From Altererythrobacter xiamenensis (GTDB lineage: Bacteria > Pseudomonadota > Alphaproteobacteria > Sphingomonadales > Sphingomonadaceae), in assembly GCF_900177715.1 (NCBI RefSeq), contig NZ_FXWG01000002.1, positions 248,001-312,000 of the forward strand: a stretch of 64,000 nt of DNA, in the 5' to 3' direction. Each line of letters begins with the position of its first letter. The first letter of the stretch is position 1. The notes beneath the pieces are model-generated. The model saw nothing but the letters and a program-made list of their open reading frames with translations, was not told where the DNA came from and made no database searches. Made by a program: the position numbers and the translations under genes. Of the stretch, positions 28,183-47,097 are shown in pieces.

Positions 28183-28276
28183 CGGTCGCACAGCGACCGC
28201 AAGGCCGACTGGCCGCCCGCAGCGAGGCGGCCTTCAGGTCGCATGAGCGAGGAAATCGCGCCCCGGATGGGGTGCG
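28183..28276 (+). repeat. Hairpin-rich intergenic repeat, copy A
   Basis: Located between the convergent phzF and serine-hydrolase genes. It starts with a 7-bp hairpin (CGGTCGC, loop ACA, GCGACCG; 28183-28199), continues with the shared core GCAAGGCCGACTGGCCGCCC from 28199, forms GGCCGCC/GGCGGCC (28211-28232), then has GCGAGGA and ends in CGCGCCCC-GGAT-GGGGTGCG (28257-28276) followed by six A. The same order of elements appears at 42065 and, reversed, at 46499. Function unknown. Confidence 0.8.
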
Positions 28277-28287
28277 AAAAAATAGAA

Positions 28288-29427
28288 TCACCTCTCGGGA
28301 TAAAGCTCGAGAATATCGGCCAGCTCCTGCAGCATCGCGATGCGCTGCGGGCGGTCGGAATGGCCCAGCCTGACAAGCGTCACGCGCTGCTCTGGCGAGA
28401 CGATGACATACTGGCCCATGTGGCCGATCAGCGAAAACACGCTGCCCGGTGCGCGGTCGGGGAAGAGCGGATGCTCGCTCTCGTCACCAGCCTCGCGGTA
28501 TTCGCGGTTGAGCCAGGTCTGCAGGCCGTATTGCGGGCTGCGCGGGCTAGGCGATACCATCAGCTCGACCCAGCGGCGTGGGACAAGCTGCTCGCCCCCC
28601 GGGGCGCGGCCCTTGCGGCGCAGGAACTCGCCGAGCTTGGCCCAGTCGCGCGCGGTGCCGTGGATCAGCGACCCGCCGATCAGCGTGCCCGATGCGTCGA
28701 ACTCGGGCACCATGGAATCCATGCCCAGAGGCCCGAACAACCGCGCCTCGAGGAAGTCCGCCACGGCACGACGGCGAATCTCGGGATCGTCGCTATCGGT
28801 CAGGGCACGCGCTGCGATGTCGGCGAGAATGACAGTGGTGTTGGAGGAATATTCGAACTGCGCGCCCGGTTCCGCCTCGAGCGGTTGCTCCTTCGCCCAG
28901 CGCGCCATGTCGTCGCGCCCGTCGAGAAAAAGCATGCGCACTTCGGAGCTTTCGTATGGCGGGTCGCCCGCTTCGGTATGGCGCAGGCCGGACCGCATCT
29001 GCAGCAATTGCCGCAGGGTAATCTCGCCGCGCGGATCGCCGGGGCGCTGCCACAATTCGACCGGCGCGCTCTCGTCGATGCTCAGCCGACCGTCGGCCAC
29101 AAGCATGCCGATCATCACGGCAGTCACGGTCTTCGCCATCGACCAGCTGACGAAGCGGGTGTCGGCATCATAGCCTTCGCCATAACGCTCGGCCGCGATT
29201 TCACCATTGGCCATCACCACCAGTGCACGGGTTTCGCCCAAGCCTTCCTTGGTGAAAAGCTCATCGACGGCGCGGGCCAGATCCTCGCGCGGGGCCCCGG
29301 CCTCTTCGGTCACGGCCGCCAGAGCAGCTTCTGTAAGCGGCGGTTCGCCGATCTCGGCTTCGCCGCAGGATGTGAGGCTTGGAAGCGCGGCGAGGAGCGC
29401 TATAGGGGCGAGCGACCGTTTCATCAT
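28288..29427 (-). CDS. Class C beta-lactamase-family serine hydrolase, lipoprotein
   Basis: A 379-residue putative lipoprotein: signal peptide MMKRSLAPIALLAALP with lipobox LTSC, then a beta-lactamase/penicillin-binding-like domain. The catalytic SxxK is SWSMAKT and the second motif is YSSN; LLQMRSGLRH is also typical. Members are esterases, DD-peptidases or nylon-oligomer-type hydrolases, so antibiotic resistance should not be assumed. The ATG pair at 29427/29424 is preceded by GAGGGG and gives a proper signal peptide; the longer reading from 29469 does not. Start lies only 35 bases from the divergent gene at 29463. Confidence 0.9.
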   Translation of the reverse strand: MMKRSLAPIALLAALPSLTSCGEAEIGEPPLTEAALAAVTEEAGAPREDLARAVDELFTKEGLGETRALVVMANGEIAAERYGEGYDADTRFVSWSMAKTVTAVMIGMLVADGRLSIDESAPVELWQRPGDPRGEITLRQLLQMRSGLRHTEAGDPPYESSEVRMLFLDGRDDMARWAKEQPLEAEPGAQFEYSSNTTVILADIAARALTDSDDPEIRRRAVADFLEARLFGPLGMDSMVPEFDASGTLIGGSLIHGTARDWAKLGEFLRRKGRAPGGEQLVPRRWVELMVSPSPRSPQYGLQTWLNREYREAGDESEHPLFPDRAPGSVFSLIGHMGQYVIVSPEQRVTLVRLGHSDRPQRIAMLQELADILELYPER

Positions 29428-29462
29428 TGGCCCCTCACTCGCGCAAGGAAATCCGATTGGCA

Positions 29463-29813
29463 ATGGCAAATGCTAGATCACGTAATGCAGGGAAGAAGGG
29501 CTCTCGCGCCTTGTGGATTCTGCTCGTCATCGCAGCGGTGCTGGCCGCCGCTGCCTGGTATTTCCGCATCCCGGCGCAGGGATATGCGCAGACCGCAGCT
29601 GCCTATTCGGCGCGCGTTGCCTGTTCATGCCGTTTCGTTGCGGGACGCAGCCTCGATGACTGCAAGAAGGACAAGCTCGCAGGAATGGAACTGGTCACGT
29701 TGAGCGACGATGTGGGAGCCAAAAGCGTGACGGCACGCTTTCCGCTGATCGCCAGCGACACGGCTCGCTATCGCGAGGGCTATGGCTGCGTGCTGGAGAA
29801 GTGGGACAGCTAG
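29463..29813 (+). CDS. Small single-pass membrane protein with conserved-looking cysteines, unknown function
   Basis: A 116-residue protein I do not recognise. A basic N-terminus (NARSRNAGKKGSRA) precedes one membrane helix (LWILLVIAAVLAAAAWYF). The remaining ~75 residues should lie in the periplasm and contain ACSCRF, DDCKKD and YGCVLEK, enough cysteines for two disulfides. The ATG at 29463 is chosen because it puts the basic stretch first; AAGGA lies about 12 bases upstream. It is divergent from the serine hydrolase and convergent with mnmA, 15 bases away. It may act with the hydrolase, but this is only positional. Confidence 0.7.
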   Translation: MANARSRNAGKKGSRALWILLVIAAVLAAAAWYFRIPAQGYAQTAAAYSARVACSCRFVAGRSLDDCKKDKLAGMELVTLSDDVGAKSVTARFPLIASDTARYREGYGCVLEKWDS

Positions 29814-42064: not shown

Positions 42065-42157
42065 CGGTCGCATATTGCGATCGCAAGGCCGAATGGTCGC
42101 CCGCAGCGGGCGCGGCTTGCCGCGCACCTAGCGAGGACGAGGCGCGGATGCGCCCTC
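42065..42157 (+). repeat. Hairpin-rich intergenic repeat, copy B
   Basis: Lies in the gap between the convergent LprI-fusion gene and sucC. Order of elements matches copy A: CGGTCGC/GCGATCG hairpin (42065-42083), the core GCAAGGCCGAATGGTCGCCC, CGCCC-GCAGC-GGGCG (42098-42112), GCGCGGC/GCCGCGC, GCGAGGA, and a last hairpin GAGGCGC-GGAT-GCGCCCTC (42139-42157, one bulge). Ten bases separate it from the end of sucC. Confidence 0.82.
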
Positions 42158-42166
42158 GCACGCATA

Positions 42167-43366
42167 TCAGGCCGCCTGCTTGACCTCGGCGACGATCTTC
42201 TTCGCGGCGTCGCCCAGATCGTCGGCCGGAACGATCGGCAGGCCGGAGTTCGCGAGGATTTCCTTGCCCTTCTCGACATTGGTGCCCTCGAGGCGAACCA
42301 CCAGCGGTACGCCGAGATCGACTTCCTTGGCGGCCACGACGATGCCCTCGGCAATCGTGTCGCAGCGCATGATGCCGCCGAAGATATTGACGAGAATGCC
42401 CTCGACCGCCGGGTCCTTGAGGATGATCTTGAACGCGGCGGTGACCTTCTCGGTCGTCGCGCCGCCGCCAACGTCGAGGAAGTTTGCCGGGAAGGCGCCG
42501 TTCAGCTTGATGATGTCCATCGTTGCCATGGCGAGGCCTGCGCCGTTGACCATGCAGCCGATGTTGCCGTCGAGCTTGATGTAGGCGAGGTCATATTCGC
42601 TCGCTTCGACTTCGGCCGGGTCTTCCTCGGTGACGTCGCGCAGCTCTTCCACGTCCTTGTGACGGAACATGGCATTGCCGTCGAAGCTCATCTTGGTATC
42701 GAGCACAAGCAGCTTCTCGTCCTTGGTTTCGACCAGCGGGTTGATCTCGAGCATTTCCATGTCGAGGTCCATGAAAGCGGTGTAGAGCTGCTTCGCGAGC
42801 TTCTGGCACTGCTTGTTGAGATCACCCTTCAGCTTCAGCGCGAAGGCCACGGCGCGGCCGTGGTGCGGCATGAAGCCCTGCGCCGGGTCGATGGTGATCG
42901 TGGTGATCTTCTCGGGCGTTTCATGCGCCACGTCTTCGATATCCATCCCGCCTTCGGTCGAAGCGATCATGGCGACGCGGCCGGTTGCGCGGTCGACCAG
43001 CATCGAGAGATAGTATTCCTTGGCGATGTCGACGCCGTCGGTGACGTAGAGACGATTGACCTGCTTGCCTTCTTCGCCGGTCTGGATGGTGACCAGCGTG
43101 TTGCCGAGCATTTCGCGGGCGTTGGTTTCGACTTCCTCGATGCTCTTGGACAGACGCACGCCGCCACCGGCATCGGGCCCGAGTTCCTTGAACTTGCCCT
43201 TGCCGCGGCCGCCGGCGTGGATCTGTGCCTTCACCACGTACAAGGGTCCGGGAAGCTTCTTCGCGCCTTCGACTGCCTCTTCAACAGTCATCGCGGCATA
43301 ACCGGTCGGTACACCGATGCCGTATTTCGCGAGCAGTTCCTTGGCCTGGTATTCGTGGATATTCAT
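42167..43366 (-). CDS. sucC: Succinyl-CoA synthetase beta subunit (ADP-forming)
   Basis: A 399-residue ATP-grasp subunit. It begins [20 protein letters not shown] and contains [28 protein letters not shown] and [15 protein letters not shown], all standard. With SucD it makes ATP/GTP from succinyl-CoA in the TCA cycle. The ATG at 43366 is preceded by AGGAAAG; the reading from 43432 adds a non-homologous N-terminus. Unlike the common sucCD arrangement, no sucD follows; the gene ends against a convergent gene and repeat B. Confidence 0.96.
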
Positions 43367-43476
43367 GGAGAGGCTTTCCTGTTCGAGATTCTGTCGGTTT
43401 GGCTCGGCAGGCCCTAAGCATGGATTGGCCATCTTGAAAAGTGGCCAATGCTGTTGCAGGGGCCGAACCTATCCAA

Positions 43477-45124: not shown

Positions 45125-45190
45125 GCAAACGAGTGAAACAGGACGTTACAATAGCTGGCGCGCGTCACGAATTGTGCTAGCGCATTGGGC

Positions 45191-46486
45191 GTGACACCCT
45201 TTCCCTGGACCGACCTCGTCATTATCGCCTGCCTGATCGTGCTCAATGGCGTCTTCGCCATGTCCGAGCTGGCGATCGTTTCGGCGAAGACTGCGCGCCT
45301 CAAGGCCGCGCGTGAGAAGGGCTCTGCGAGTGCCGGGACCGCGCTTGCGCTGGCCGCCGATCCGGGCAAGTTCCTCTCGACCGTCCAGATCGGCATTACT
45401 CTGATCGCGATCATTACCGGCGCGTTCTCGGGCGCGAGCCTTGAAGGGCCTGTGGGTGAGCGTCTTGCCGCGCTGGGCGTGCCAGCGGATGTCTCGGGCG
45501 AAGTCGCGTTCATCACCGTCATCGCCCTGACCACCTATTTCAGCGTGGTCGTGGGCGAACTGGTTCCCAAGCAGCTGGCGCTGAAGTCTGCGGTCCCGAT
45601 TGCCATCGTCATGGCGCGTCCGATGGCGCTTCTGGCGACCATCGCCGCGCCGCTGGTATGGCTGCTCGACAGGTCCTCCGGCGTCCTCGTGCGCCTGTTC
45701 GGCCTGAGGCCGGGCGGGCAATCCTCCGTCACGGCAGAAGAACTGCACATGATCTTCGCCGAAGCGACCCGCTCGGGCGTGATCGAGGAAGATCAGCACC
45801 AGATCCTGACCGGCGTCGTCCGGCTTGCAGAGCGTCCCGTGCGCGAAATGATGACCCCGCGAACCGAGATCGACTGGATCGACATCAACGCGGACGAGAA
45901 GGCGATCCGCAAGGTTATCGAGCAAAGCCCGCATTCGCTGCTGCCGGTGGCCGATGGCTCGCCCGACACGATCGTGGGGGTGGTCAAGGTGAAGGAACTG
46001 CTCGCCGCATTCGTCGCCGGCGAGACTCCCGTGCTGTCCGAACTCACGAAGAAAGCCGAAGTCGTGCCCGACCAGCTCGACGCGATGGACGCGCTGCGCG
46101 TATTGCAGCAGTCCGACGTCGCCATGGCGATGGTGCATGACGAATATGGCCACCTCGACGGGATCGTGACGCCGGTGGACCTGCTCACCGCGCTGGTGGG
46201 CACTTTCGCCAGCGATCAGGACCAGGGCGATGCCCCGCAGATCGTCGAGCGCAAGGACGGCTCGATGCTCGTATCGGGCACCTATTCAGCCGATGCTCTC
46301 GCCGACCGCCTGAACCTCGAATATCCCGATGACCGGGAGTTCGGCACCGCGGCGGGCTACGCGCTTCACGTGTTCAAACGGCTGCCGACCGAAGGTGACA
46401 GCTTCACCGATCAGGGCTGGCAGTTCGAAGTGGTCGACATGGACCGCCGCCGCATCGACAAGTTGCTGGTGAGCAAGGAAGGCTGA
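45191..46486 (+). CDS. CNNM/CBS-domain protein (HlyC/CorC family)
   Basis: A 431-residue inner-membrane protein. An N-terminal CNNM domain with about four membrane segments begins WTDLVIIACLIVLNGVFAMS and includes LSTVQIGITLIAIITG. Two CBS domains follow (VREMMTPRTEIDWIDINADE and MAMVHDEYGHLDGIVTPVDL), then a CorC_HlyC transporter-associated domain at the C-terminus. The family is linked to Mg2+/Co2+ or Na+ efflux. The start codon is weak: GTG at 45191 gives MTPFPW; TTG at 45185 is also in frame. Confidence 0.9.
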   Translation: MTPFPWTDLVIIACLIVLNGVFAMSELAIVSAKTARLKAAREKGSASAGTALALAADPGKFLSTVQIGITLIAIITGAFSGASLEGPVGERLAALGVPADVSGEVAFITVIALTTYFSVVVGELVPKQLALKSAVPIAIVMARPMALLATIAAPLVWLLDRSSGVLVRLFGLRPGGQSSVTAEELHMIFAEATRSGVIEEDQHQILTGVVRLAERPVREMMTPRTEIDWIDINADEKAIRKVIEQSPHSLLPVADGSPDTIVGVVKVKELLAAFVAGETPVLSELTKKAEVVPDQLDAMDALRVLQQSDVAMAMVHDEYGHLDGIVTPVDLLTALVGTFASDQDQGDAPQIVERKDGSMLVSGTYSADALADRLNLEYPDDREFGTAAGYALHVFKRLPTEGDSFTDQGWQFEVVDMDRRRIDKLLVSKEG

Positions 46487-46498
46487 TTTTTGTCTTCC

Positions 46499-46583
46499 GC
46501 AAGCGCATCCGCGCTCGCGATATCCTCGCACCTTCGGTGCTGCGGGCGGCCGATTGGCCTTGCGGGCCACTGGTCGTGGCCCG
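46499..46583 (-). repeat. Hairpin-rich intergenic repeat, copy C (reverse orientation)
   Basis: Read on the minus strand the order is GGGCCAC-GACCA-GTGGCCC, core GCAAGGCCAATCGGCCGCCC then GCAGC, a GCACC/GGTGC hairpin, GCGAGGATATCGCG-like bases, and GCGAGCGC-GGAT-GCGCTTGC (46518-46499). It lies in the 200-base gap between the convergent CorC-type gene and the DUF3035 gene and starts 12 bases after the CorC stop. Confidence 0.8.
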
Positions 46584-46686: not shown

Positions 46687-47097
46687 CTACCCTGAAATAA
46701 CGACCTGTGCCGCCTGACCGTCACCCTCGGGTGCGGCGATGATGTCGCGGGTCACGCGGCCCTTGGCCACGGTGTTGGTCTCCGGATCGCCAATGGTCGA
46801 GCGGATGCCGACATCTGCTGCACCGGCGCGATCGAGCGCGCTCGTCTCGACACCCGAACGCGGTGCCGGACCGCCGAAGAGCGCTTCGAGCGCCTGCTCG
46901 GCCGCCGTGCCTTCGGTCGGGCGCGGGGCGCCGGGTGCGGGCGGGACGAGATTGAAATCGGGCGGCACCACCAACGGCGCCTGCCGCTGCACGGCAAACT
47001 CGTCGGGACGCTCGCGATTGAGGAAACCGCCGCCGCCGCAGCCGGCCAGCATGGCGCTCGTGGCGGTGATCAGGACGAGGCTCTTGAGGTTACGCAT
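46687..47097 (-). CDS. DUF3035 lipoprotein
   Basis: A 136-residue lipoprotein with signal peptide RNLKSLVLITATSAMLA and lipobox LAGC. The part after GGGGFLNRERPDEFAVQRQ and APLVVPPDFNLVPP matches DUF3035 (beta-barrel assembly-enhancing-like proteins of alphaproteobacteria, function uncertain). It is proline- and alanine-rich and probably unstructured in part. Last gene of the minus-strand run that begins at 55.6 kb; three bases downstream of lspA. Confidence 0.88.
   Translation of the reverse strand: MRNLKSLVLITATSAMLAGCGGGGFLNRERPDEFAVQRQAPLVVPPDFNLVPPAPGAPRPTEGTAAEQALEALFGGPAPRSGVETSALDRAGAADVGIRSTIGDPETNTVAKGRVTRDIIAAPEGDGQAAQVVISG

Follow-up and report, generated by a model that had tools for sequence, protein, structure and literature searches.

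A dispersed repeat of about 100 bp, present in three copies in a 64-kb stretch of bacterial DNA (the window), belongs to a family whose stems covary, whose orientation and distance are tied to one neighbouring stop codon, whose adjacent copies mostly stand head to head, and which is present or absent at the same sites in close relatives. It is probably a non-autonomous repeat of the REP, BIME or REPIN kind, with no cognate transposase found in a search for the Y1 class, that lands or survives behind stop codons and places its hairpins in the 3' UTR of the host gene. The preliminary description of this DNA had taken the three copies for a dispersed REP/BIME-like element of the genus, a reading borne out by the copy numbers and the pairing reported below. 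The observation is confirmed, and the family is larger than first described: neither a scarcity of further copies, looked for genome-wide, nor random placement, looked for by gap type, was found.

Structure and distribution of the repeat

On strand S, the strand on which the preliminary description read the element, four potential hairpins follow one another in the order H1-CAA-H2-GYCCGCA-H3-GAGGA-H4, with about nine A-rich bases behind them. H1 has the form CGG...CCG, and its first pairs are C-G and G-C in the consensus of 42 copies. H2 combines a stem of 4 bp with a loop that is mostly GANY (GACC in 96, GACT in 66, GAAC in 34 and GAAT in 7 of 217), H3 varies among copies in both length and sequence, and the loop of H4 is GGAB. 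The layout had been read as three hairpins with a constant core; all these parts are present, but the core is itself a hairpin, H2, so that there are four. In a long-tailed form, assigned by a simple rule to 38 of 241 copies, H4 is replaced by AGCCAAG...GCYGGCGYTTGARGC.

Covariation was assessed in 42 copies of similar length, aligned with MAFFT under a structure drawn by hand, with other H3 lengths left out. Standard pairs fill 95.5% of the pair cells, a figure that leans toward the structure because the latter was hand-drawn on length-selected copies, and 16 of the 29 pairs have changed on both sides. None of 500 shuffles scored as high, and slid controls reached at most 45.7%. Folding of single copies is less uniform. 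Copies 1 and 3 of the window fold better than 200 of 200 shuffles; copy 1, however, reaches its energy minimum by combining H4 with a longer-range pairing and not in the four-hairpin form, and copy 2 folds no better than shuffles, either as RNA (z -0.87) or as DNA (z -1.47). A conserved 5' leader looked promising and was dropped, being present in only 5 of 241 copies.

The three window copies are listed in Table 1, with ends refined to 42158 for copy 2 and 46498 for copy 3. A 25-nt core pattern has three matches in the window, against none in 100 shuffles. Each element had been described as starting 12-35 bases after a stop codon; from the sense-side stop codon to the 5' start the distance is indeed 17 and 34 nt in copies 1 and 2, but 103 nt in copy 3. 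The tight anchor is the distance from H4 to the antisense stop codon, which is 11, 8 and 11 nt in copies 1, 2 and 3.

Table 1. Copies of the repeat in the window, parts of copy 1 and the antisense stop codons (window positions)
Feature	Position	Strand	Remark
Element copy 1	28183..28276	+	short-tailed form; model R2, 110.3 bits
H1 of copy 1	28183..28199	+	CGG..CCG hairpin
H2 of copy 1	28203..28214	+	4-bp stem, loop GACT; the 'constant core' of the preliminary description
H3 region of copy 1	28222..28248	+	stem varies among copies
GAGGA linker of copy 1	28249..28253	+	
H4 of copy 1	28257..28276	+	loop GGAT
A-rich stretch of copy 1	28277..28287	+	from H4 to antisense stop codon
TGA stop codon, gene 28288-29469 (-)	28288..28290	-	antisense gene; 11 nt past H4 of copy 1
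Element copy 2	42065..42158	+	
TGA stop codon, gene 42167-43432 (-)	42167..42169	-	antisense gene, sucC in the preliminary naming; 8 nt past H4 of copy 2
Element copy 3	46498..46583	-	
TGA stop codon, gene 45185-46486 (+)	46484..46486	+	gene antisense to copy 3; 11 nt past H4

The window lies within contig C4 of a genome of 3.08 Mb in 5 contigs. A degenerate core allowing up to 3 mismatches matched this genome 18 times and its reversed control not at all; 17 of the 18 matches were kept as genuine, and one (L017) was judged a chance match. Model R1, which runs from H1 through GAGGA and was built from 10 sequences of the same genome, has 27 matches there at E<=0.1. At E<=1e-4 it matches all 61 genomes sampled from the genus, each of which carries 1 to 42 copies.

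Beyond the genus, matches were obtained in at least 61 of 199 genomes and at least 37 of 96 genera of the bacterial family, counts that are lower bounds with 25 first-look candidates scored per genome. At class level, where 14 candidates were scored per genome, model R2 has matches in at least 3 of 289 genomes, all three of them within the same family. A pattern search of genome contigs found at least 116 stretches with the element. The named loci among the matches listed come from Erythrobacter, Porphyrobacter, Qipengyuania, Altererythrobacter, Tsuneonella and Parerythrobacter; metagenome-assembled genomes named to higher ranks are also among the matches listed, one of them labelled Hyphomonadaceae. 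A blastn search of plasmid and phage collections with copy 1 as query gave no match. As far as sampled, the repeat is confined to one bacterial family.

Several local arrangements stand out. In two copies of the source genome (L062 and L066), the H2 loop is enlarged by about 40 inserted nt, which contain small hairpins themselves. L021 (G002) and L046 (G011) are followed by a common sequence (GACGGAACCACCATGGGTCGTTTG or near), which suggests that these copies are orthologous. A stretch of 10 kb from a different genus of this family (G080:C4:138763-148688) has at least six R1 matches, each about 57 nt long and all on one strand, and G031:C1:2374900-2375726 holds four same-strand copies in about 830 nt, three of them in 270 nt. 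Copies also occur close upstream of a tRNA-Met-like sequence, at L053 in the source genome and at L036 and L038 in G003, the latter two being identical copies with identical flanks, as far as shown.

Placement behind stop codons and differences between relatives

For placement, 260 model hits were reduced to 241 by removing duplicates and to 219 by dropping 22 without room or called neighbours; the genes were called with a purpose-made codon-usage caller, not a standard one. Convergent gaps hold 91 of these copies, co-directional gaps 116 (70 with both genes antisense and 46 sense) and divergent gaps 12. Element-free gaps in the window and the genome-contig loci number 127 convergent, 472 co-directional and 106 divergent. 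Convergent gaps, to which the preliminary description had assigned all three copies, are thus enriched but not exclusive.

An antisense gene lies on the 3' side of the element in 161 of 219 copies, and in 115 of these 161 its stop codon stands 23-50 nt after GAGGA, just past the fourth hairpin; the distance to the neighbouring gene on the 5' side is loose. The same holds within gap types: the antisense stop codon is at most 50 nt from GAGGA in 70 of the 91 convergent gaps and 48 of the 70 co-directional antisense gaps, and a sense stop codon within 26 nt of H1 occurs in 21 of the 91 convergent ones. Read on strand S, the antisense stop codons are TCA (73), TTA (29) and CTA (20). Against the placement rule, a sense gene occupies the 3' side in 58 of 219 copies, some of which may face uncalled or RNA genes.

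The distance from H4 to the stop codon was counted in the 122 short-tailed copies with an antisense gene, long-tailed copies being left out. It is -5 to 15 nt in 86, 16-30 nt in 14, more than 30 nt in 19 and below -5 nt in 3. In 86 of the 122, a hairpin thus stands at most 15 nt from the stop codon, the mark of a stop-proximal translational REP. REPs of E. coli that lie this close to a stop codon are reported to stall ribosomes (PMC12306157), and the RepRanger count puts about 11% of E. coli REPs within that distance. In this analysis, the stop-codon distance rule of the present element looks sharper than that of E. coli REPs. Since the A-rich end lies near the antisense stop codon, it is the complement of the element that opens the 3' UTR of that neighbour's mRNA. 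The earlier idea of a structured transcript-end element was right in kind, but named the wrong strand and stop codon: the fixed distance is to the antisense stop on the 3' side.

Adjacent copies follow a preferred arrangement. Among 42 pairs no more than 200 nt apart, 34 stand head to head, 7 head to tail and 1 tail to tail; in 19 of the 34 head-to-head pairs the spacer measures 33-41 nt, although these spacers differ in sequence. Single copies are also common. Where a head-to-head pair occupies a convergent gap, both genes can have a copy next to their stop codon, as at L122, L128 and L133. At G065:C1:185872-187702, three head-to-head pairs recur at intervals of about 360-400 nt together with one further copy, like a repeated unit.

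Occupancy of the same gaps was followed in 41 homologous regions, the window and those of 40 congeners. The gap of window copy 3 holds an element in 19 of 41 regions (16 facing one gene, 6 the other and 3 both), a neighbouring gap in 10 and the gap beside sucC in 4, the last two in a single orientation throughout. In one congener (G053), the gap between the homologues of 45185-46486 and 46687-47097 holds a hairpin resembling a CGTC REP (L121); in other congeners the same gap carries the present element.

Closely related genomes were compared without an outgroup, so that gain and loss are indistinguishable in what follows. G006 and G057 are 95.0% identical over 9,160 nt. At aligned sites the element is kept at L270 and L274, differs by one copy at L275 and L280 and is partly replaced at L271. 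In a second set of 10 sites, 5 were aligned and 5 lacked a two-sided match; these five further sites show a partner without a copy at L272, L277, L279 and L285 and a remnant at L278. G065 and G068 are 93.1% identical over 6,027 nt, and 11 sites of G065 were considered, of which 5 were aligned, 5 were judged shared by position and 1 (L302) was not aligned. Thus 5 of 11 sites are common to both genomes by position; in G068 the element is absent at L306 and L307, only H1 is left at L299, L301 is truncated and L300 is rearranged.

The element comes and goes among relatives that are 93-95% identical, like a mobile element. The aligned sites showed no target duplication, and their junctions were too ragged for a target or a duplication to be defined. 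Copies in the source genome have a similarity of 0.647 within the genome versus 0.676 between genomes; as within-genome copies are no more alike than those of different genomes, no recent burst of amplification is seen by this measure.

Comparison with known repeats and RNA families

In an Rfam scan of the window only a tRNA reached threshold. The best sub-threshold match of copy 1 was the CrfA small RNA (RF01527), with 16.2 bits (gathering score 38) and an E value of 0.74; it spans the whole model, yet at chance level. CrfA and the other Rfam families were rejected, as all scores were at that level. No named family with this layout was found in the open-licence literature either, in agreement with the preliminary description, and the family would be new on the strength of these two kinds of search.

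Several known repeats of bacterial genomes nevertheless share features with the element. CGTC REPs (Di Nocera et al. 2013, PMC3733652) are palindromic repeats of Alphaproteobacteria without a dedicated transposase. Each is a single hairpin of 8-9 bp with a CGTC tag, A-T as the first two pairs, a loop of 4-5 and a CCA tail; head-to-head dimers predominate and stems vary. They lie near gene 3' ends; in S. wittichii fewer than 20 bp separate convergent REPs from either ORF, and E. lithoralis and S. alaskensis are among the species with REPs inside genes (PMC3733652). RepRanger also counts palindromes in E. cryptus. Like CGTC REPs, the element has no known transposase (Y1 was searched), forms head-to-head dimers and lies near gene 3' ends, likenesses that are insufficient for membership. 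Unlike them, it has four hairpins over about 100 nt, lacks the CGTC marks and has an orientation tied to one stop codon. A CGTC-REP pattern is absent from the window at up to 3 mismatches.

A similar balance applies to GTAG REPs, BIMEs and REPINs, which the element resembles in being dispersed, hairpin-forming, intergenic and often paired head to head; unlike in GTAG REPs and REPINs, however, the 42-copy consensus contains no GTAG. The RAYT (Y1) transposase (PF01797) has no match in the source genome and matches in 4 of 61 congeners, with a model that matched 5 of 14 controls. Mobilisation by a RAYT or IS200/605 enzyme was rejected for the source genome, where Y1 is absent. Contigs C3, C5 and C10 of G002 carry six Y1 transposase matches, and the element is rare there (4 matches).

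The CIR repeat, as described in PMC2229807 and PMC10969869, is an intergenic alphaproteobacterial repeat of about 110 bp with a conserved hairpin structure of two arms and GANTC at the terminal loop. The element is likewise an intergenic alphaproteobacterial hairpin repeat of about 100 bp, but with four hairpins versus two arms. GANTC occurs in 8 of 241 copies, fewer than the mean of 46.9 in 20 mononucleotide shuffles, and identity with CIR was rejected on this scarcity. By the features tested, all of them read from sequence, the element is not a CGTC REP, a GTAG REP, a CIR or a member of an Rfam family; it appears to behave like REP doublets.

Strand preference and possible roles

Stable DNA loops are known in the form C-GNAB-G, in which the last loop base is not A, and GGAA is a GNRA loop, which RNA is expected to tolerate. 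A literature search on GNAB DNA loops gave none on the subject among the papers listed. The H4 loop keeps the form C-GGAB-G: of 197 hairpins, 149 have GGAT, GGAG or GGAC and 2 have GGAA, and a second count gave 107 and 5 of 131. The H1 loop is GNA in 81 of 189. These H4 and H1 loops fit stable DNA loops and not the RNA GNRA rule; on the doubtful proposal set out below, folded DNA would be the form under selection. On strand S, model-fitted alignments contain G.T versus A.C mismatches at 112:47 without the doubtful pair 44-61 and at 154:98 with it, and model-free counts in H4 give 33:13 at the inner six positions and 37:35 at all eight. The equality over the eight positions makes the strand argument weak, and the evidence for S as the favoured strand is a lean, not proof.

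On the probable reading, that of a REP-like repeat without a transposase of its own, some enzyme would spread the element by acting in trans on its hairpins, probably in strand S as single-stranded DNA. The element would move or be copied, then land or survive just behind stop codons, where its hairpins could impede ribosomes on the host mRNA or the 3' exonucleases that attack it. Such an effect is likely because the first hairpin mostly starts within 15 nt of the stop codon, the range of stalling by E. coli REPs cited above. A bolder proposal is a mobile element addressed to stop codons: a type of enzyme not yet linked to REPs would move a single-stranded DNA with four hairpins, which would enter in one orientation a few bases behind stop codons and be under selection as folded DNA. 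This seems doubtful, if conceivable.

It is also unlikely that the element is mainly a selected 3'-UTR regulator, an mRNA stabiliser or translation brake for which spread by copying is secondary. Its fixed place and orientation behind stop codons, the covariation of its stems and the sites common to species (by position, G065 shares 5 of its 11 with G068) would suit such a role, but the genes that carry it differ between species, as the 19, 10 and 4 of 41 regions per gap indicate, and the strand preference, if real, favours the strand other than host mRNA. Hairpins directly behind stop codons equally call to mind an intrinsic terminator, a G+C hairpin followed by a U-tract, and terminator-like matches on the host-mRNA strand are found in 14 of 122 copies compared with 76 of 3000 random 120-mers. 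However, 14 of 122 on that strand and 1 of 122 on strand S are all the matches there are, termination of the host gene would need the A-rich stretch on the other side of H4, and the element has no U-tract. The intrinsic-terminator reading is not supported and is very improbable. A native terminator beyond H1 occurs in 7 of 122 copies and in 36 of 669 control gene ends, figures that speak neither way.

GGA is found both in the loop of H4 and in the GAGGA linker, and 149 of 197 H4 loops are GGAT, GGAG or GGAC, which could point to transcription of strand S into a structured small RNA or an RNA that binds CsrA. This has next to no likelihood: 70 of the 219 copies are flanked by antisense genes on both sides, so that no sense gene reads into them, and no Rfam small RNA family reached threshold. 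A CsrA-binding RNA in particular was rejected, since CsrA (PF02599) is not encoded in the source genome (0 matches there and 1 of 41 congeners, with a model that matched 3 of 14 control genomes).

The element family touches on the wider question of the origin and spread of REP-like repeats that have no transposase. It is longer, strongly covarying, present in 61 of 61 genomes of the genus and placed differently between species that are 5-7% apart. Models R1 and R2 permit its annotation in Erythrobacter and relatives, and its genus-wide presence with differing placement makes both its mobility and its effect on gene ends directly testable.
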